Virus record (IMG/VR): IMGVR_UViG_3300045806_000179
Coordinates: 1-64,000 of that record
Direction: 5' to 3' (one strand)
DNA: 64,000 nucleotides
From: a virus
Shown: positions 9,990 to 58,068 of the stretch, one piece after another
How the letters are laid out: each line of letters opens with the position of its first letter
Position numbering within the stretch: position 1 is the stretch's first letter
Translations under genes and position numbers: made by a program
Notes under the pieces: model-generated
Database searches by the model: none
The model's input: the letters and a program-made list of their open reading frames with translations, nothing else
Told to the model about the DNA's origin: nothing

Positions 9990-11495
9990 ATGTCCAACAA
10001 TATGCAGGCAGTTCTCGAGGCCATTGCGAAGTCGCAGTCGACCCCGATCGATGATCCCGTTCTCAAGAACCTCGGTCTCGCGAAGAGCACGTTCTCGCAG
10101 CCTGGCGGCGCAACGACCGGCCTCAACTACTATGACCTCGAGCTTGGCGCCAAGTTCCTCGTTCCCGTTCTGACCCCTCTGCGCAACGAGATCCCGCGCG
10201 TCTCGGGCAAGGGCGGTATCCAGGCAAACTGGCGCGCGATTACCGGCATCAACACGACCGGTCTTCGCATCGGCGTTTCCGGTGGCAATCGCTCGGCTGT
10301 CATGGCTGTCTCGACGCAGGACTACACTGCGTCCTACAAGGGTATCGGCCTTGAGCAGAACGTCGACTTCGAGGCGCAGTATTCTGCGAACGGATTCGAC
10401 GATGTCCGCTCGCAGGCTGGTCTTCGCGGTCTGCAGGCTACGATGATCGGTGAAGAGGCTCTCATCCTCGGCGGCAACTCGACCCTGGCACTCGGTACCA
10501 CCGGCACTCCGACGCTGACTGCCTCGACCTCTGGCGGCTCGCTGGCGACCCAGACGCTCTCGGTCATTGCCGTGGCTCTGTCTCTCGACGGCTTCATCAA
10601 CGGCTCGGTTCTCGGCGGCATTCAGGCCTCCATCACTCGCACCAATGCCGACTCCTCGTCCGACACCTTCGGTGGCGGCGCTGGTCAGAAGTCCGCGAAT
10701 GCGACTGTCTCGGTCACCGGCGCCACTGGCTCAGTCACTGCGTCGACCACTGTCAAGACTGGCGCCTTCGGCTATGCCTGGTTCTGGGGTCCGGCTGGCT
10801 CCGAGATTCTCGGCGCCATCACGAACATCAACTCGGTGTCCATCACGGCCCTCGCCACCGGCTCGCAGACTGCGGCATCGCTGCCGTCGGCTGACTGGTC
10901 GCAGAACAACCTCGTGTTCGACGGTCTCCTGACCATCGCCATGAAGGGTCTCGGCTCCTACGTCGCGACGCAGCCCACTGGCTCTGCTGGCGTCGGCACT
11001 CCGCTGACCTCGGACGGTGCCGGCGGCATCGTCGAGATCGACGCTGCCCTGAAGTACTTCTGGGACGTCTATCGCCTGTCACCCCAGCGCATCTGGGTCA
11101 ACTCGCAGGAGGCCCTGAACATCTCGCGCAAGATCCTTGCTGGTAACAGTAACGCGGCTCAGCGCTTCGTGTTCAATACGACCCAGGATGCCATTGGTGG
11201 TGGTATCATGGTTCGCACCTACCTCAACCGCTTCTCCATGGGCGGTGGCAGCACGCTGGACATCATGATTCATCCGAACATGCCTGCCGGCACGATCCTG
11301 TTCGACACGACCTCGCTGCCCTATCCGATCTCCGGTGTTGGCAACGTTCGCCAGATCCGGACTCGTCAGGAGTACTACCAGATCGAGTGGCCGCTTCGTA
11401 CTCGCAAATATGAGTATGGTGTCTACGCGGACGAGGTGCTCCAGCACTACTTCCCGCCAGCTCTCGGCGTGATCACGAATATCGGCAACGGCTGA
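9990..11495 (+). CDS. Major capsid protein (HK97 fold)
   Basis: 501 residues, directly after the protease/scaffold gene. The N-terminal part (NYYDLELGAKFLVPVLTPLRNEIPR) and central GLEQNVDFEAQY segment are typical of this capsid group. A Gly/Ser/Thr-rich domain of about 120 residues (about 165-290) looks like a surface insertion. The C-terminal part (YRLSPQRIWVNSQEALNISRK ... QYEIEWP-like) belongs to the P and A domains. Codon use is biased toward C-ending codons more than in neighbours, as expected for the most highly expressed gene. About 415 copies would be expected in a T=7 head, but the actual T number is not visible here. Confidence 0.85.
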   Translation: MSNNMQAVLEAIAKSQSTPIDDPVLKNLGLAKSTFSQPGGATTGLNYYDLELGAKFLVPVLTPLRNEIPRVSGKGGIQANWRAITGINTTGLRIGVSGGNRSAVMAVSTQDYTASYKGIGLEQNVDFEAQYSANGFDDVRSQAGLRGLQATMIGEEALILGGNSTLALGTTGTPTLTASTSGGSLATQTLSVIAVALSLDGFINGSVLGGIQASITRTNADSSSDTFGGGAGQKSANATVSVTGATGSVTASTTVKTGAFGYAWFWGPAGSEILGAITNINSVSITALATGSQTAASLPSADWSQNNLVFDGLLTIAMKGLGSYVATQPTGSAGVGTPLTSDGAGGIVEIDAALKYFWDVYRLSPQRIWVNSQEALNISRKILAGNSNAAQRFVFNTTQDAIGGGIMVRTYLNRFSMGGGSTLDIMIHPNMPAGTILFDTTSLPYPISGVGNVRQIRTRQEYYQIEWPLRTRKYEYGVYADEVLQHYFPPALGVITNIGNG

Positions 11496-11599: not shown

Positions 11600-12058
11600 A
11601 TGGCACAGGTTATCATGAATGCCCCGACGGGTTGCTCGGGTATGTCCATCGAGGGATTCGAGATCGACGTCAATGATGGTGTCGCCACTGTCGACGAGCA
11701 GTATATCGGTCTTCTGGTGTCGCATGGATTCACGACTCAGGATGCTCCGGTCATCGGGACGCGCTCCGGTAATATTCAGTTCGTCACTGCTGCTGCTCGC
11801 TCGGTGATCGAGAACCTCGACGACGCGACGCTCGGCGCCTTCGTCGCTCTGTCCGACGACGACCGCGCCTCGTTCTGGAGTCAGTTCCAGAGTGTGATCC
11901 AGCGCGCACAGACTCCTGCTGTGCCGGCGACTGCTGCTCCGGCGACTGCTGCTCCGGCGACTGCTGCTCCGGCGACTGCTGCTCCGGCGACTGCTGCTCC
12001 GGCGACTGCTGCTCCGGCGACTGCTGCTCCGGCGACTGCTGCTCCGGCGACGAAGTAA
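11600..12058 (+). CDS. Small head-associated protein with a tandem PATAA tail
   Basis: 152 residues. The first 100 residues form a compact domain (ITIDVNDG-like beta region, then a helix LDDATLGAFVALSDDDRASFW). The C-terminus is eight perfect copies of the pentapeptide PATAA, ending PATK. Position between capsid and head-tail connector suggests a head decoration or head-completion role, with the Pro/Ala tail acting as an extended linker. No family was recognised. Copy-number change of the repeat is likely between relatives. Confidence 0.6.
   Translation: MAQVIMNAPTGCSGMSIEGFEIDVNDGVATVDEQYIGLLVSHGFTTQDAPVIGTRSGNIQFVTAAARSVIENLDDATLGAFVALSDDDRASFWSQFQSVIQRAQTPAVPATAAPATAAPATAAPATAAPATAAPATAAPATAAPATAAPATK
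11924..12043 (+). repeat. Eight perfect 15-bp tandem repeats (CCGGCGACTGCTGCT)
   Basis: The unit CCGGCGACTGCTGCT occurs eight times without a mismatch, followed by a partial ninth. It encodes PATAA and keeps frame. Perfect identity points to recent slippage or unequal recombination. Confidence 0.95.
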
Positions 12059-12070
12059 GGAACACAGAAG

Positions 12071-12886
12071 ATGGCACAGTTCGATCTTGTCTCACTCGCT
12101 GAAGTCAAGACCTGGCTTGGCATCACTAACACGGACGCCACGCGAGATGCTCTTCTGTCTAGACTTATCACGCAGATCAGCCGTGCCATCTTCAACAACA
12201 TAAATCGCAACGGTCTTCTTCCACAGACTGTGACGGAGGTGTATGATGGCAGTGGTCAGAGCAGGCTCCAGCTCAGAAACTGGCCAGCACTCTCTGTGTC
12301 CTCTGTCACGGTCGACACCGCCACCTACGCAGTCTCGACAAGTGTCTCGACGCCTGGCTTCTTTCTGGAGTCCCCGGACACCGAGCCTCCTGGAAACATG
12401 CAGCTTCTTCATCTTCGGTATGGTGGGTTCACCAAGGGGTGGCAGAACGTCTATGTGACGTACACGATCGGGTACATGGTGTCCGGGGAAGTACAGTCCA
12501 TCCCGTCCTCTGGACCATATCAGATCACTGCTACTGCTCCGTACGGAAACTGGGGATCTGACTACAGCGTCTCGTTCACTGGTGGCGCAGTTCTCACTGC
12601 TGTGACCGGAGTTCCGTCCACTGGCCAGTACTCTGTATCCGCTGGTGTCTACACGTTCTCCGCAGCCGACGCTGGAAAGTCCGTCACGCTGTCGTACGGA
12701 TACATTCCGGCGGATCTAACACAGTGCGCTCTCGAGTGGATTGCGTATCGATACTCTCAGAGAGATCGCATTGGACAGACCTCAAAGAGTATTGGTGGTC
12801 AGGAGACCGTGGCGTACACCAATGAGGCTGTACCAGCGTTCGTAGTCGAGAGTCTGCAGAACTTCAGAAGGATCGTCCCATGCTAG
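12071..12886 (+). CDS. Head-tail connector (gp6-like) with an Ig-like insertion
   Basis: 271 residues. The N-terminus (LVSLAEVKTWLGITNTDATRDALLSRLITQISRAI) is the typical four-helix start of HK97 gp6/YqbG-type adaptors that form a ring below the portal. The C-terminus (ADLTQCALEWIAYRYSQRDRIG) matches the family end. In between is a long beta-rich insertion (about residues 85-215) with SVSFTGGAVLTAVTGVPSTGQYSVSAGVYTF-type strands, like a small Ig-like domain. The same GVYTFSAADA phrase recurs in the major tail protein. It overlaps the next gene by seven bases. Confidence 0.7.
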   Translation: MAQFDLVSLAEVKTWLGITNTDATRDALLSRLITQISRAIFNNINRNGLLPQTVTEVYDGSGQSRLQLRNWPALSVSSVTVDTATYAVSTSVSTPGFFLESPDTEPPGNMQLLHLRYGGFTKGWQNVYVTYTIGYMVSGEVQSIPSSGPYQITATAPYGNWGSDYSVSFTGGAVLTAVTGVPSTGQYSVSAGVYTFSAADAGKSVTLSYGYIPADLTQCALEWIAYRYSQRDRIGQTSKSIGGQETVAYTNEAVPAFVVESLQNFRRIVPC

Positions 12887-53560: not shown

Positions 53561-54193
53561 TCAGCCCTCCTTCGGTTCTTGCGACGCAGCCCACTCCTTC
53601 TGGTCCACTGCCACGATAAAGCCCTTCGACATGTCGTAGAGTACGTCGGCCTTCGTACCACCAGCCCTGATGAACTCGGCGATGGACATGCCGACGACAT
53701 AGAGAGCGTAGCGTCCATGAGCCGCTGACGAGGGCTTCTTCGGATTCGGCTTCACGAACGAGATGACATGAGGGTCCTCATCCATCGTAGCGCCGCGAGC
53801 AGTCACTGGCTTCTCTCCTGGCACTGTGGGGGCACGAGGAGTCCTGGGACCAGTCGACTTGGAGCCGTTCGGGCGAGTGTGGGGGACAGACTGGCTTCCG
53901 CGAGAAGTCGGGCCAGCGACAGTCAGAGGACGAGACATGAGGATCTCAAGGATGTTCTTGTCCTGAACATTGGAGCAGGCGACAACAACATCGACATGTT
54001 CCTTGCCCTCGAGAAGCTCGCACATGACCTCGCAGTCAGGCTTAAGAGCGTCCGTGCGCTGCTCGGTGATGACGCCCTCCTCGAAGCACGAGTCCCAGAC
54101 CTCACACATCTGCGACTCGCTCATCTGCGAGAAGAACTTCTTCCAGGAAGACTCTCCCTCGACCGTGGAGACAGTGGTATTCGATTCAGACAT
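53561..54193 (-). CDS. NPK-domain protein 4, preceded by a hammerhead ribozyme
   Basis: 210 residues if ATG 54193 is used; 54202 and 54211 are in-frame alternatives close to the AGGAG that borders ribozyme stem II. An acidic helical N-terminus (FFSQMSESQMCEVWDSCFEE), a Pro/Thr/Arg-rich linker, then the domain: PNPKKPSSAAHGRYALYVVG, MSIAEFIRAGGTKADVLYD, KGFIVAV. It is the best match to protein 5 at 58374. Function unknown. Confidence 0.6.
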   Translation of the reverse strand: MSESNTTVSTVEGESSWKKFFSQMSESQMCEVWDSCFEEGVITEQRTDALKPDCEVMCELLEGKEHVDVVVACSNVQDKNILEILMSRPLTVAGPTSRGSQSVPHTRPNGSKSTGPRTPRAPTVPGEKPVTARGATMDEDPHVISFVKPNPKKPSSAAHGRYALYVVGMSIAEFIRAGGTKADVLYDMSKGFIVAVDQKEWAASQEPKEG

Positions 54194-54216
54194 TGTATGC
54201 ATCCTATACATGGCTC

Positions 54217-54279
54217 CTGACTCATCAGTGCAGGTGGGAGCACTACCCTGCAGACGCCCTCGTGAGGGCGTTTCGTCAG
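54217..54279 (-). ncRNA. Type II hammerhead ribozyme A
   Basis: Read 5' to 3' on the minus strand: stem II 5' strand CTGAC (54279-54275), GAAA (54274-54271), stem III CGCCCT/AGGGCG with CACG loop, U and C (54254, 54253) before the predicted cleavage site, stem I TGCAGG/CCTGCA (54252-54247 and 54234-54229), conserved CTGATGA (54228-54222), stem II 3' strand GTCAG (54221-54217). All core positions fit, including the A15.1-U16.1 pair. The stop codon of the upstream gene lies in the stem II 5' strand. Confidence 0.85.
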
Positions 54280-54461
54280 CTACACGCGTAGACGGTATTG
54301 CCATTGTCATCGACAACAATGAGGGCATCTCCGCCACCGCCCTCATCCTGGCGATCCTCCTCGTACTGCTCGAGAACATCCTCCCTCGATCCCTCCAGAA
54401 CCAGTCGCTTTTCGGTGCTCGACTCGGGACCAGTCGGGACTTCCCACAGTTTCCAGAACAT
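54276..54461 (-). CDS. Small acidic protein between two hammerhead ribozymes
   Basis: 61 residues from ATG 54461, with GAGGAG six bases upstream. Glu/Asp-rich middle (EGSREDVLEQYEEDRQDEGG) and a beta-hairpin-like end (ALIVVDDNGNTVYACS). Cleavage at both flanking ribozymes would release its coding region as a short monocistronic RNA of about 250 bases. Confidence 0.5.
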   Translation of the reverse strand: MFWKLWEVPTGPESSTEKRLVLEGSREDVLEQYEEDRQDEGGGGDALIVVDDNGNTVYACS

Positions 54462-54474
54462 ACTTATCTCCTCA

Positions 54475-54543
54475 GACTCTTCAGTGCAGGTACATCCTGC
54501 AGACACAACCACGACGCAGAACTCTACGTGGTCGTGTTTCGTC
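54475..54543 (-). ncRNA. Type II hammerhead ribozyme B
   Basis: Minus strand: GAC (54543-54541), GAAA (54540-54537), stem III CACGACCACG paired with CGTCGTGGTTGTG (10 pairs incl. one G-U), UC (54503-54502), stem I TGCAGG/CCTGCA with a five-base loop, CTGAAGA (54484-54478, allowed N at position 7), GTC (54477-54475). Stem II is only three pairs, the weakest of the three. The stop codon of the upstream gene (54544-54542) is in stem II, and the RBS of the next gene follows. Confidence 0.75.
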
Positions 54544-54838
54544 ACTCCTCGTATGTATTGTGCAGAGCAAACATAGAGCCTCTTCCATGATCACCATGCT
54601 GGGTGATGTTAAACACTTCACCATCGAGTACAATCGTGTAGTGCTTTTCGTACAGAACAGCATCCTCACATATGGCCGGATAAATGCTCTCACATCCTGC
54701 ATACATGTCCCAGTCAGACCTGGTGAACGGGCGAAACGTGGCTAGAGCCACTAGGATCAGTGCTTCCTCGTTACTCACTCTCGTTACTGGCATGCCAGCA
54801 AAGTTGTTGTAGTCAGGACTCCTGCTGTGATCAGTCAT
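54542..54838 (-). CDS. Protein of unknown function
   Basis: 98 residues, overlapping the gene upstream by eight bases. VTRVSNEEALILVALATFRP is a helix-turn-helix-like start, and YTIVLDGEVFNITQHGDHG resembles a small beta domain. No family recognised. Its stop codon is embedded in ribozyme B. Confidence 0.5.
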   Translation of the reverse strand: MTDHSRSPDYNNFAGMPVTRVSNEEALILVALATFRPFTRSDWDMYAGCESIYPAICEDAVLYEKHYTIVLDGEVFNITQHGDHGRGSMFALHNTYEE

Positions 54839-55262
54839 GAACCACTCCGTACATGTTGGGAAACCGCAGGGTCTCCAGGGTCATAATTACATTCTCAAGA
54901 GTGTTGTTGAACACAGAGAACTGAATCGTCATCCCTTTCACTGACATAGCGTGCTCTCCCACAGACCTGAGTGCATACGACACGTTGTCGCAGCGCTCGC
55001 GGCGCGACGGACCGCGCTTGCGTGCGGTCGAGAACTGCAGGAACTCAACAGTGTCGAAGTCGATCAGCACAGGAGGTATCGGTATCTTCAGAGAGTCCAG
55101 CGTCTCTGCTGTCTCTCTGAGCATCTTCACTCGCTCCATACCATCCAGGCTCGGCACTCCCCGGTCGACCACTCTGCGGATCTCCTGAGAGAGGGACTCC
55201 AGCTCGGCACGTGCCATCCTGCACGCCTCGATCACGGTGACTCGGTATACAACTGCGGGCAT
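54831..55262 (-). CDS. Protein of unknown function
   Basis: 143 residues, TGATG-coupled to the gene upstream. N-terminal VVYRVTVIEACRMARAELESLSQEI helix, then an acidic/hydrophobic middle (PPVLIDFDTVEFLQFSTA) and a C-terminal VFNNTLENVIMTLETLRF. No recognisable domain. Confidence 0.5.
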   Translation of the reverse strand: MPAVVYRVTVIEACRMARAELESLSQEIRRVVDRGVPSLDGMERVKMLRETAETLDSLKIPIPPVLIDFDTVEFLQFSTARKRGPSRRERCDNVSYALRSVGEHAMSVKGMTIQFSVFNNTLENVIMTLETLRFPNMYGVVHD

Positions 55263-55585
55263 CACAAGTCCTCCGAGACTGCAGAGTAGAGGAGAAGCAC
55301 GACGTCTGCTCCTGGGTCCTGACCGTTCATTATCTCCATGGCATCGGAGAAGGTGGAGAAGATACACGGGCCTCGTCCGTCGGTCCACTTCACCACCTCC
55401 TCCGCGATGTCGAACCTCATCGATCTCACCATGAGCCAGCGCTCTGCGTTCCTGAGCATGTCAGCTGTGAGGGGACCTCCGGACAGACTGCGCGTCATGA
55501 CCTCTACTCCAACAACACGAAGTGCCGCAGTGACCGCAGTGTGTAGCTTCGGATGAGTCTGCTCGCTAAACATAACTTCGGCCAT
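55262..55585 (-). CDS. Protein of unknown function
   Basis: 107 residues; ATG 55585 has GAGGG at eight-base spacing. Helical (HPKLHTAVTAALRVVGVEVM, NAERWLMVRSMRFDIAEEVV). The first gene after the promoter at 55.6 kb, so it leads a sub-operon of at least two genes. Confidence 0.5.
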   Translation of the reverse strand: MAEVMFSEQTHPKLHTAVTAALRVVGVEVMTRSLSGGPLTADMLRNAERWLMVRSMRFDIAEEVVKWTDGRGPCIFSTFSDAMEIMNGQDPGADVVLLLYSAVSEDL

Positions 55586-55609
55586 TCGCATAACCCTCTC
55601 TATATACGT

Positions 55610-55638
55610 ATAGTACGCTATTCCAGCGGCCTAGTAAA
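55610..55638 (-). promoter_or_regulatory. Promoter TTTACT-17-TACTAT
   Basis: Minus strand TTTACT (55638-55633), 17 bases, TACTAT (55615-55610), 25 bases upstream of ATG 55585. CCAC precedes the -35 as at 57.4 kb, and GGCCGCTGG lies in the spacer. Confidence 0.6.
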
Positions 55639-55701
55639 GTGGAAGAACTAACTATTTTCAGACTGATACTGTGTAGAAGTCAACTGTTGTCTTCATCAGA
55701 A

Positions 55702-55920
55702 CTATCCCTCTCTCATTGCGCGCATGCACTTGATGAGTTCACCTGCAGTGCTGACCTGCTGCGACATGGACTGAACTCTGCCTCCGAGCTTCTCTGCCTC
55801 ACGCTGTACGGCTAGGGTATCGGTGTACGATACGACAACCGCGTCAAACTCGAACGGCATGGACGGAGTGTCCTTGCAGGTAATGCGGATCTTCATCGTG
55901 TAGACTGTTGTGGTTGCCAT
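55702..55920 (-). CDS. Small protein of unknown function
   Basis: 72 residues, TGATG-coupled. Beta strands (TVYTMKIRITCKD, FEFDAVVVSYTD) then a helix (AVQREAEKLGGRVQSMSQQV). It ends 64 bases before the promoter of the next unit. Confidence 0.45.
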   Translation of the reverse strand: MATTTVYTMKIRITCKDTPSMPFEFDAVVVSYTDTLAVQREAEKLGGRVQSMSQQVSTAGELIKCMRAMREG

Positions 55921-56231
55921 CAGAAAGTCCTCTTCGCCCACGCATCGAACACAGCCCAGCGATCGGGCGTCACGACCGTGTCCGGACTCTCACCCCTGCC
56001 GACGCAGCACTCCCAGCACAGAGCAGGTCCGCACGGAGGAACGAACTCCAGACGCTGTCTCTCCGGCCAGTAGTAGAACAGAATGCATCCCGTGTACCTG
56101 CCCTCCTTTCCGTGGGGAGGAGGCATGAAGGTGTGGTCGTAGTACTCGTGGGGTATGCAGCTGTCATCCTCTCCGGTGAAGACCTCGACCGTCTGTCCGG
56201 TCTTCCAGTGTACCGCGATGAATACTCTCAC
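55920..56231 (-). CDS. Cys-rich small protein
   Basis: 103 residues from a GTG overlapping the previous stop. Cys residues in DDSCIP, GCILF and CGPALCWECCVGRGE suggest a metal site. Aromatic-rich otherwise. Unknown function. Confidence 0.45.
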   Translation of the reverse strand: MRVFIAVHWKTGQTVEVFTGEDDSCIPHEYYDHTFMPPPHGKEGRYTGCILFYYWPERQRLEFVPPCGPALCWECCVGRGESPDTVVTPDRWAVFDAWAKRTF

Positions 56232-56440
56232 TTCACTCTTCCTCTGTCGTACTGCTCGCCACGACGCACTATCTGGTCTCTCCCGAACGACATGAGCTGA
56301 ACGTCGTGGAAGTCCAGAACGTGGTCAAAAACCTTGGCTCCGTGCACGATCTCTCTCCTAACGATCGCGCACGCCTCAATCATGAGTGGTGAGAGAATGG
56401 TGAGGTTCCGTAGACTCCGGACAGTGTCCTGCTGGCTCAT
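56228..56440 (-). CDS. Small protein of unknown function
   Basis: 70 residues, ATGA-coupled to the repeat protein upstream. A helical first half (RNLTILSPLMIEACAIVRRE) and a basic end (GRDQIVRRGEQYDRGRVK). No family recognised. Confidence 0.4.
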   Translation of the reverse strand: MSQQDTVRSLRNLTILSPLMIEACAIVRREIVHGAKVFDHVLDFHDVQLMSFGRDQIVRRGEQYDRGRVK

Positions 56441-57069
56441 ATGGTACCTCCAGAATCCACGACTTCAAGAAAGTGAGAGGTTTGTACAGCCCACGCAGCA
56501 TCCCACGCAGCATCCGTCGCAGCATCCCTCGCAGCCCACGCAGTAGTCCACGCAGCAGCCCACACAGCATCCCACGCAGCATCCCACGCAGCATCCCTCG
56601 CAGCCCACGCAGCAGCCCACGCAGCAGCCCACGCAGCATCCCTCTCAGCATCCCTCGCAGCCCACGCAGCAGTCCACGCAGCATCCGTCACAACATCCCA
56701 CGCAGCATCCGTCGCAGCAGCCGTCGCAGCAGCCGTCGCAGCATCCATCGCAGCATTCAATTCGTCATCCGTCGCGCTTCCATTGGCATGCCGATCTGCG
56801 ACATTGACAGCGTCGCGCGAACGCTGATCTGCCATCAAATGCTCGACCTGGCGCGCGCACCAAACGGCAAATAAACGCCATTCTCGCGCATGCTGCGGCT
56901 CGGCGCGGCAGCACCACAATGCGTCTTCCAGACCGTTGATCTCGACGATCTGCGCAAACGGCAGGATCTCATCATCAGCCCTGGTCTTTCCCAGTCCAGC
57001 GAGTAACTTGGTCCAGCCCTTATGACAGGGAGAGTGCTCGCGTATTCGACTAAGTGTGGTGGTGATCAT
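56437..57069 (-). CDS. Putative immunity-protein-like (Imm-5-like) protein with AAW repeat tail
   Basis: 210 residues; ATG 57069 has AGGAG eight bases upstream. The first 100 residues (CHKGWTKLLAGLGKT, ADDEILPFAQIVEINGLEDALWCCRA, RLFAVWCARQVEHLM, ADRHANGSATDDEL) are a widely spread phage/bacterial family sometimes called immunity-like. The second half is tetrapeptide repeats of the type AAWD/AAWA/ARDA, probably a long amphipathic or alpha-solenoid helix. The function in phages is unknown. Tandem 12-bp repeats in the DNA imply variable length. Confidence 0.6.
   Translation of the reverse strand: MITTTLSRIREHSPCHKGWTKLLAGLGKTRADDEILPFAQIVEINGLEDALWCCRAEPQHAREWRLFAVWCARQVEHLMADQRSRDAVNVADRHANGSATDDELNAAMDAATAAATAAATDAAWDVVTDAAWTAAWAARDAERDAAWAAAWAAAWAARDAAWDAAWDAVWAAAWTTAWAARDAATDAAWDAAWAVQTSHFLEVVDSGGTI
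56480..56750 (-). repeat. Imperfect 12-bp tandem repeats (AAW tetrapeptides)
   Basis: The plus strand shows repeated CACGCAGCATCC-type units with variants for Trp, Asp, Arg and Thr codons. They keep frame in the protein encoded on the minus strand. Degenerate compared with the PATAA repeat, so older or under selection. Confidence 0.85.
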
Positions 57070-57344
57070 CTCTGCCACTCCTTCCTGAGCTTATCCGCCT
57101 CAGTCGAGGCCAGCTGTTGGTAGAACGTCGGCATCCTGCGCCAGAACGTCATCTTTCGCTCGCATATGCCGAGCTCCTTGGTCGCCCGATGGCGCTCAGC
57201 AAAGTCCCTCGGTGACTGCTGGATGGCAGTGAGGATGAGGCTATTGCTGAAGTGAGACAGCCATATCTTGGTTGCGTCCATCCTCGAGAGGTCAGGAGGT
57301 CTTCCGGCGCTGACTGAGTCTTCGCTGTAGAGGATCATTCCCAT
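57066..57344 (-). CDS. Protein of unknown function
   Basis: 92 residues, stop overlapping the start of the repeat protein. Helical and basic (MDATKIWLSHFSNSLILTAI, KLRKEWQR at the end). No family recognised. About 55 bases upstream is a consensus promoter. Confidence 0.45.
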   Translation of the reverse strand: MGMILYSEDSVSAGRPPDLSRMDATKIWLSHFSNSLILTAIQQSPRDFAERHRATKELGICERKMTFWRRMPTFYQQLASTEADKLRKEWQR

Positions 57345-57397
57345 GTTCAGTATATCTTCTTCGCTGTAACAGGCCGCTGGTTAGCGGCTAATAGGTA

Positions 57398-57426
57398 AAT
57401 ACTACGCCCTAGGCCGGGTGTAGTAA
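57398..57426 (-). promoter_or_regulatory. Promoter TTTACT-17-TAGTAT
   Basis: Minus strand TTTACT (57426-57421), 17 bases, TAGTAT (57403-57398), in the gap between the genes at 57445 and 57344. Same -35 box and CCAC context as at 55.6 kb. Confidence 0.6.
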
Positions 57427-57444
57427 AGTGGAACGTTCAGAGCA

Positions 57445-57645
57445 TTAGCATGTACGACCAAGCGACTGAGACACGTGAACGTTCCATCCCTCACGCTCGT
57501 AGGCGACCCTCTTCCGGTCAGCCTCGGCCTGGGAGCACCACTCCTGGTACTTGTGACAGTTCCTCTTCGTGGCGGTGAAGAGGACAGACTTCCTCTCTCG
57601 CTCGAGCATTGCCTGTCGCACTGTCATCCCTCTGTCTTCAGCCAT
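57445..57645 (-). CDS. Small basic protein of unknown function
   Basis: 66 residues from ATG 57645 with GGGAG upstream, overlapping the gene before by 22 bases. Charged helix (RQAMLERERKSVLFTATKRN), then HKYQEWCSQAEADRKRVAY. No family recognised. Confidence 0.45.
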   Translation of the reverse strand: MAEDRGMTVRQAMLERERKSVLFTATKRNCHKYQEWCSQAEADRKRVAYEREGWNVHVSQSLGRTC

Positions 57646-57854
57646 CTTCCGTCTCCCTGCTTCTCGAATCTCTGCCCAAGACCCATTCCGAGGGTCGTGT
57701 AGCGTCTGTGCATGATCCACGATATCTCGCTCATGCAGGCCCACGAACCAGCTGTGGTCGCGGCATCGTACATGACTCCACCGTAGAGACGACCGAAGTC
57801 GTCTCGCTCTCCGACTGGACTAAGCCAGTAGACTGGATCAGACATGCCACTCAT
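57624..57854 (-). CDS. Small protein following hammerhead ribozyme C
   Basis: 76 residues from ATG 57854; AGGAG at seven-base spacing lies right after ribozyme stem II. SDPVYWLSPVGERDDFGRLY and AATTAGSWACMSEISWIMHRR are present. No family recognised. Confidence 0.5.
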   Translation of the reverse strand: MSGMSDPVYWLSPVGERDDFGRLYGGVMYDAATTAGSWACMSEISWIMHRRYTTLGMGLGQRFEKQGDGRWLKTEG

Positions 57855-57869
57855 GCTAGTACTCCTGCT

Positions 57870-57927
57870 GGACTCATCAGCGCACGACCAACGTGCGGAC
57901 ACGACCGGGGAGGGTCGTGTTTCGTCC
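57870..57927 (-). ncRNA. Type II hammerhead ribozyme C
   Basis: Minus strand: GGAC (57927-57924), GAAA (57923-57920), stem III CACGACC/GGTCGTG (seven pairs, CTCCCC loop), UC (57899-57898), stem I CGCACG/CGTGCG (57897-57892 and 57886-57881) with loop TTGGT, CTGATGA (57880-57874), GTCC (57873-57870). Every helix is perfectly paired. The upstream gene's TGA (57930-57928) directly touches stem II. Confidence 0.85.
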
Positions 57928-58068
57928 TCAGCGATACAGTTGGGTGAAGCAGACATCATACGAGTGGTGCTTCTGGCACTCGGTCATTCCGTCGTCCTGT
58001 GCCCACAGGCACAGAGCAATGATGCAGGAAGCGACGACAGCGAGTATGATGACAGGAAGATGACGCAT
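57928..58068 (-). CDS. Small secreted/membrane protein (46 residues)
   Basis: MRHLPVIILAVVASCIIALC is a signal-peptide or anchor helix, followed by a His/Cys-containing domain (TECQKHHSYDVCFTQLYR). Its stop codon borders ribozyme C, mirroring the other two ribozyme-gene junctions, which supports it being real. Confidence 0.5.
   Translation of the reverse strand: MRHLPVIILAVVASCIIALCLWAQDDGMTECQKHHSYDVCFTQLYR

Follow-up and report, generated by a model that had tools for sequence, protein, structure and literature searches.

Three type II hammerhead ribozymes at gene junctions of a phage operon and a recurrent layout of stop codon, ribozyme and ribosome-binding site

Our analysis identifies three type II hammerhead ribozymes, A, B and C, in a 64,000-nucleotide stretch of viral DNA (positions 1 to 64,000 of the 64,858-base IMG/VR contig IMGVR_UViG_3300045806_000179; here called the window), where each fills the space between two neighbouring members of a series of small genes on the minus strand. 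Judged by its portal, primase, DNA polymerase, ribonucleotide reductase and terminase genes, the source is a tailed phage. We consider it likely that the three are genuine hammerheads and that they cleave the polycistronic transcript of the minus strand where genes meet. An earlier note on this DNA had described three such elements in the order stem II 5' strand, GAAA, stem III, UC, stem I, CUGANGA, stem II 3' strand, with cleavage at 54252/54253, 54501/54502 and 57897/57898; parsing of the cores recovers every element in this order and predicts the same cuts.

54217..54279, minus strand: hammerhead A, type II, pseudoknot type, from parsed core and stems and covariance models; stem II 54279-54275/54221-54217, GAA 54274-54272, stem III hairpin 54271-54254, C17 54253, stem I hairpin 54252-54229, CTGATGA 54228-54222, predicted cut 54253/54252 (CTGAC-GAAA-stem III-C54253^stem I-CTGATGA-GTCAG)
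54213..54241, minus strand: predicted pseudoknot of site A, loop I GCTCC (54241-54237) with GGAGC (54217-54213)
54475..54544, minus strand: hammerhead B, type II, atypical, with the overlapping stop codon TGA; stem II GAC/GTC 54543-54541/54477-54475, stem III hairpin 54537-54503, C17 54502, stem I hairpin 54501-54485, CTGAAGA 54484-54478, predicted cut 54502/54501 (GAC-GAAA-stem III-C54502^stem I-CTGAAGA-GTC)
57870..57930, minus strand: hammerhead C, type II, compact type, with the abutting stop codon TGA; stem II 57927-57924/57873-57870, stem III hairpin 57920-57899, C17 57898, stem I hairpin 57897-57881, CTGATGA 57880-57874, predicted cut 57898/57897 (GGAC-GAAA-stem III-C57898^stem I-CTGATGA-GTCC)

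All three carry the conserved core CUGANGA ... GAAA ... UH in type II order, with stems I and III as closed hairpins and stem II open. The final A of GAAA is the first base of stem III. Stems II, III and I have 5, 7 and 6 base pairs (bp) at A, 3, 11 and 6 at B, and 4, 8 and 6 at C. At site B the hammerhead is complete, as first described, but the description needs correcting in that stem II has merely 3 bp and the core reads CTGAAGA.

These structures are not chance occurrences. A parser demanding the hammerhead core and at least 3, 5 and 5 pairs in stems II, III and I returns exactly A, B and C from the window and nothing from 150 dinucleotide-shuffled windows; no type I or type III hammerheads were found in the window. 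The covariance search proposed in the earlier note was made with two models. The first, R1, which was built from 37 hammerheads of other phages with the window sequences excluded, matches all three sites, with 54.8 bits at C (E 3.5e-15), 51.4 at A (E 4.4e-14) and 39.8 at B (E 2.3e-10); its next-best match has an E value of 0.14. The Rfam type II hammerhead model RF02276 gives 37.8 bits at site A, the only one to pass the gathering score of 37, and 32.8 bits at site C, while site B has no match at E<=5. In the R1 alignment of 37 sequences, which come from the first IMG/VR scan described below, paired cells amount to 99%, changes on both sides occur in 170 cells compared with 50.5 after shuffling, and covariation is 0.746 compared with 0.157 for shuffled and at most 0.133 for slid versions. 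R1 recovered 23 of 23 positive controls and also matched the known hammerheads of Bcep176 and HF2.

At all three junctions the ribozyme takes in or adjoins the upstream stop codon. As noted before, the TGA lies inside stem II at A (54278-54276) and B (54544-54542) and touches it at C (57930-57928). The companion claim, that the ribosome-binding site (RBS) directly follows the 3' strand of stem II, holds at B (AGGAG 54472-54468) and C (AGGAG 57866-57862) but not at A, where AGGAG 54218-54214 overlaps stem II. Because the first ATG at site A (54211) is merely 2 nucleotides (nt) past AGGAG, the downstream gene may really start at ATG 54202 or 54193. From 58068 down, the remaining junctions of the block overlap or abut, except for two gaps of about 100 bases. 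The genes flanking the ribozymes are the following open reading frames (ORFs).

57928..58068, minus strand: 46-amino-acid ORF upstream of C, its TGA touching stem II of C
57624..57854, minus strand: 76-amino-acid ORF downstream of C, phrog_29767, unknown function, AGGAG 7 nt ahead of ATG
54542..54838, minus strand: 98-amino-acid ORF upstream of B, its TGA within stem II of B, no family match
54276..54461, minus strand: 61-amino-acid ORF between B and A, AGGAG 6 nt ahead of ATG, its TGA within stem II of A
53561..54211, minus strand: 216-amino-acid ORF downstream of A, three possible starts as given above, no family match

A 111-codon open frame (57624-57959, minus strand) spans hammerhead C in frame with the 76-amino-acid gene; it is probably fortuitous, and it would conceal the ribozyme from gene callers.

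The layout of stop codon, ribozyme and RBS is not peculiar to this phage. Two pattern scans of IMG/VR, whose figures here and below are counts among the matches listed and not a census, together give at least 300 distinct type II hammerheads. The first pattern, GACGAAACN{12,36}GTCN{12,36}CTGANGAGTC, fixes no stem I pairing and just the first two pairs of stem III; the second, with another stem II sequence (GTC/GAC), added 150 further hammerheads. Among 156 distinct matches of the first scan, stem I has at least 5 pairs in 148 and stem III at least 6 in 139, compared with means of 7 and 8 of 156 when 3' strands are swapped between loci. Where enough flank is present (162 matches), an ORF of 40 codons or more ends within 60 nt upstream in 154, an RBS and start within 60 nt downstream in 138, and both in 132, as against 5/162 on the opposite strand and 122/1730 at random places. 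The second scan replicates this placement, with 105/140 at sense junctions and 2/140 at antisense ones. In contigs with several copies all hammerheads lie on the same strand (36/36 and 26/26 in the two scans), mostly 250-1000 nt or about one gene apart. Applied to GTDB cellular genomes, the first pattern yields mostly chance sequences, with both stems present in 15/120 matches; 9 of these 15 sit at junctions, compared with 4 of 99 matches without the stems. Five IMG/VR phage contigs (L092, L101, L121, L381 and L004) carry 5-9 hammerheads per operon, nearly one per gene.

Two subclasses can be told apart by the length of the stem I hairpin. When it has at least 20 nt, loop I can pair with the 3' tail in a pseudoknot of 4 bp or more in 23/28 cases (shuffled mean 10.4, maximum 16), and in the second scan 96/99 hammerheads with a long stem I have such a pseudoknot. 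Hammerheads with a shorter stem I, the compact class, mostly lack it and carry an A just outside stem II (A(-5), 124/129) and a U at stem I position 7 (U7, 128/131), neither letter being fixed by the scan patterns; in the second scan A(-5) and U7 are each present in 48/51 compact hammerheads, compared with 35/99 and 4/99 in the pseudoknot class. Other hammerheads are known to have a contact between an A and a U that joins loop I to the stem II region, and in the compact class A(-5) and U7 probably form one. Site C, with its TGA at -7 and thus A(-5), and with U7, is of the compact class; site A, with a predicted 5-bp pseudoknot whose 3' strand is the Shine-Dalgarno AGGAG, is of the pseudoknot class; and site B, with neither the two letters nor a 3' pseudoknot, fits neither class and may be a weak ribozyme. 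The compact subclass is mostly missed by Rfam thresholds: among 61 R1 matches in 13 loci, some of which are R1 training sequences, 6 reach the gathering score, and all 6 come from L101 and L121, the two loci whose hammerheads are of the pseudoknot type.

The conserved A bears on the choice of stop codon. In the compact class A(-5) is kept even with the stop further upstream (65/70 and 28/28 in the two scans). A stop at -6 is TAG in 31/35 cases and never TGA, and a stop at -7 is TAA in 20 cases, TGA in 3 and never TAG, against an overall usage in which TGA is commonest (687/1269). The excess of TAG at -6 arises in part because a G is required for the fourth stem II pair. In the pseudoknot class TAG stands at -5 in 37/41, its G being common to the stop codon and stem II. 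As read from these sequences, a stop codon that reaches -5 supplies the nearly invariant A, and stop-codon choice is constrained as a result. It is quite possible, if short of probable, that phage junction hammerheads represent a widespread 'stop-codon ribozyme', in which the upstream stop is a structural part, either through the A outside stem II that probably contacts the loop I U or through a stem II pair, so that termination and self-cutting would be coupled and the stop codon set by the ribozyme. We found no description of the stop-codon overlap or of the Rfam-missed compact subclass in the open-access literature searched.

Homologous junctions in other phages record how the pairing has been maintained. 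In front of a downstream gene of the DUF932 family (phrog_1221, 14 members) the hammerhead stays in place at 22-72% protein identity, with up to six compensatory pairs in stem I and up to four in stem III; the only stem I pairing breaks counted involve one member, L053. The compensatory changes that the earlier note had asked for at homologous sites are present at the DUF932 junctions of other phages; for the window's own sites no orthologous junctions were found. The association with DUF932 is not general, and DUF932 was rejected as a dedicated partner: no hammerhead was found in six cultured actinophages that carry DUF932-like genes (best E 0.0099).

The orientation on the sense strand, the exact position and the selection on pairing speak for the cutting of mRNA, and mRNA processing, although only partly supported, is the best-supported reading of these sites. 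Because type II topology places the cut between two closed hairpins, both new ends would carry hairpins, as the earlier note had reasoned. The upstream mRNA would be left with a short 3' stem III hairpin and a 2',3'-cyclic phosphate right behind its stop codon, the downstream mRNA would begin with a 5'-OH stem I hairpin just ahead of its RBS, and the hairpins might protect these ends. Self-cleavage in this phage would thereby divide the gene block into messages that decay and are translated separately, and cuts at B and A would release an RNA of 249 nt (54501-54253) carrying the 61-amino-acid ORF. Since the stop codon lies within stem II or next to it, a ribosome that terminates translation of the upstream gene would be expected to block folding of the ribozyme, so that cutting would follow ribosome release.

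The idea of a built-in mRNA processing system gains from what recurs in hundreds of phage loci, namely sense orientation, an exact position at gene junctions and stem changes that compensate each other; it is not new, having been proposed already in 2011, and several observations weigh against it. Site B has neither A(-5) and U7 of the compact class nor a 3' pseudoknot. No orthologous junctions were found for the window genes, and the neighbouring proteins are without usable IMG/VR relatives. A search of 35 capsid relatives, including the Brevundimonas phages Polewnik and Strzyga, with RF02276 found no hammerhead at E<=0.01, nor did R1 on 20 records (19 of the 35 and one other), and megablast against INPHARED gave no match. 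Comparison with related phages, which the earlier note had suggested, revealed no conservation of these junctions, a trait to be expected of a functional site although it does not strictly define the family, and the absence of hammerheads from the capsid relatives at this threshold indicates that the device is dispensable in this lineage.

It is unlikely that some of the sites have decayed and no longer cut. This would apply to B above all, with its 3-bp stem II, its lack of A(-5), loop I U7 and a 3' pseudoknot and its failure to match Rfam; however, B retains a full catalytic core, 11 uninterrupted stem III pairs and its strong R1 match (E 2.3e-10). A distinctly smaller chance attaches to the view that the hammerheads are self-spreading or hitch-hiking elements, which duplicate within genomes, mark the joints between cassettes and hardly affect expression. 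Copies within a contig are far more alike than copies between contigs (stem I identical in 15% and 0.7%, respectively), A and B have a common stem I (TGCAGG/CCTGCA), B and C a common ACACGACC in stem III, and the downstream genes are highly diverse (112 clusters of 135), as such spreading would predict. Yet the near-exclusive sense orientation, the pairing kept through compensatory changes and the retained tertiary-contact letters demand selection on the transcribed RNA.

Even less probable is a switch in which the Shine-Dalgarno sequence is held by the pseudoknot and by stem II or its extension until loss of the 5' strand on cutting frees it and turns downstream translation on. Two features of the window suggest it: the predicted pseudoknot strand at A is the Shine-Dalgarno itself, and in one folding of site B the start codon is covered by an outer helix, ACAUAC/GUAUGU. 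However, the effect at B varies with the length folded, predicted RBS accessibility over 147 loci is unchanged by cutting (0.503 to 0.515), pairing between 5' and 3' flanks is no better than for swapped flanks (-8.62 and -8.58 kcal/mol), and a pseudoknot over an RBS-like stretch is rare (1/28 long-loop cases, then 2/96 in the second scan). As a general mechanism the switch is rejected by the foldings of accessibility and flank pairing. Excision by two adjacent hammerheads, whose 249-nt (54501-54253) and 3.4-kb products would have joinable 5'-OH and cyclic-phosphate ends, for circular or ligated RNA is highly improbable, as the 20 window proteins scanned with Pfam (a part of the proteome) include no RNA ligase and circular or spliced products of other clusters were sought but not detected (PMC3088659).

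Hammerhead clusters and the cutting of polycistronic RNA have been described before, and the three sites are a further case. Prophage clusters flank genes and were proposed to break up long phage transcripts into mRNAs of one gene each (Perreault et al. 2011, PMC3088659), with cleavage of other clusters demonstrated in vitro and in E. coli (PMC3088659). These clusters, including the ardA cluster of A. tumefaciens, resemble ours in having several hammerheads per operon about one gene apart (PMC3088659); the main text of that paper does not use the term 'stop codon', whereas here each of the three sites has a stop codon within stem II or next to it. Sites A, B and C share with RF02276 the core, the permuted order with open stem II and the GUC cleavage triplet. 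The pseudoknot between loop I and 3' tail of the published consensus is predicted at A and not at B or C, and C differs in belonging to the compact subclass, with its A at -5 and its loop I U. In HHphage of the Halorubrum phages HF1/HF2, a type II hammerhead likewise has a stop codon directly before and a start codon directly after it: in HF2, which has one R1 match, the annotated hammerhead (10292-10359) follows the upstream coding sequence by 1 nt (end 10290) and precedes that of a helicase by 11 nt (start 10371). HHphage differs in its variant core and archaeal host (PMC3088659). According to work cited in PMC3088659, a 5' end of an HF2 transcript lies within three nucleotides of the hammerhead cleavage site, whereas the cuts at sites A-C are predicted from sequence. 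In Bcep176 the R1 match starts at 12168, just behind the end of gp32 at 12165, but the next gene is on the opposite strand. According to a later paper, the biological reason why ribozymes are associated with genes has yet to be explained (PMC10085705); what bacterial and phage hammerheads do has been an unsettled question since 2011. Our survey makes the question testable, as the recurrent layout predicts RNA ends, the effects of replacing TAG by TGA at -6 and termination-coupled cutting, and it indicates that current Rfam thresholds overlook most of the compact subclass.

Each non-coding gap of the gene block contains a promoter-like repeat.

55610..55638, minus strand: TTTACT-17-TACTAT, in one gap
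57399..57427, minus strand: TTTACT-17-TAGTAT, in the other gap

The motif TTTACT-17-TANTAT occurs only at these two places of the window, and 100 shuffles do not contain it; over 55610-55643 and 57399-57432 both copies have TCCACTTTACTA and TANTAT at equal spacing. Within the block, the ORF at 56437-57069 (minus strand) has an N-terminal half assigned to phrog_18326, with matches in Pseudomonas phage AF, Bcep176 and others, and a long array of GCAGC-CCACGCA-like short repeats (56480-56760) in the C-terminal half. On the plus strand, a 5-hmdU DNA kinase helical domain (PF18723, 36241-37410), a thymidylate synthase family protein (PF00303, 39359-40429) and a TET-associated glycosyltransferase (PF20691, 41456-42283) suggest that the phage probably hypermodifies thymidine in its own DNA. 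A sub-cut-off match to Afu_254 (Rfam) at 11965-12019 (plus strand) is a low-complexity CTGCTGCTCCGGCGA-type repeat. Finally, 1 Mb of loci picked for type II hammerheads, and hence a biased sample, contains 8 type I/III candidates; in L013, L022, L071, L073 and L080, type III candidates are immediately followed by an RBS and start codon.

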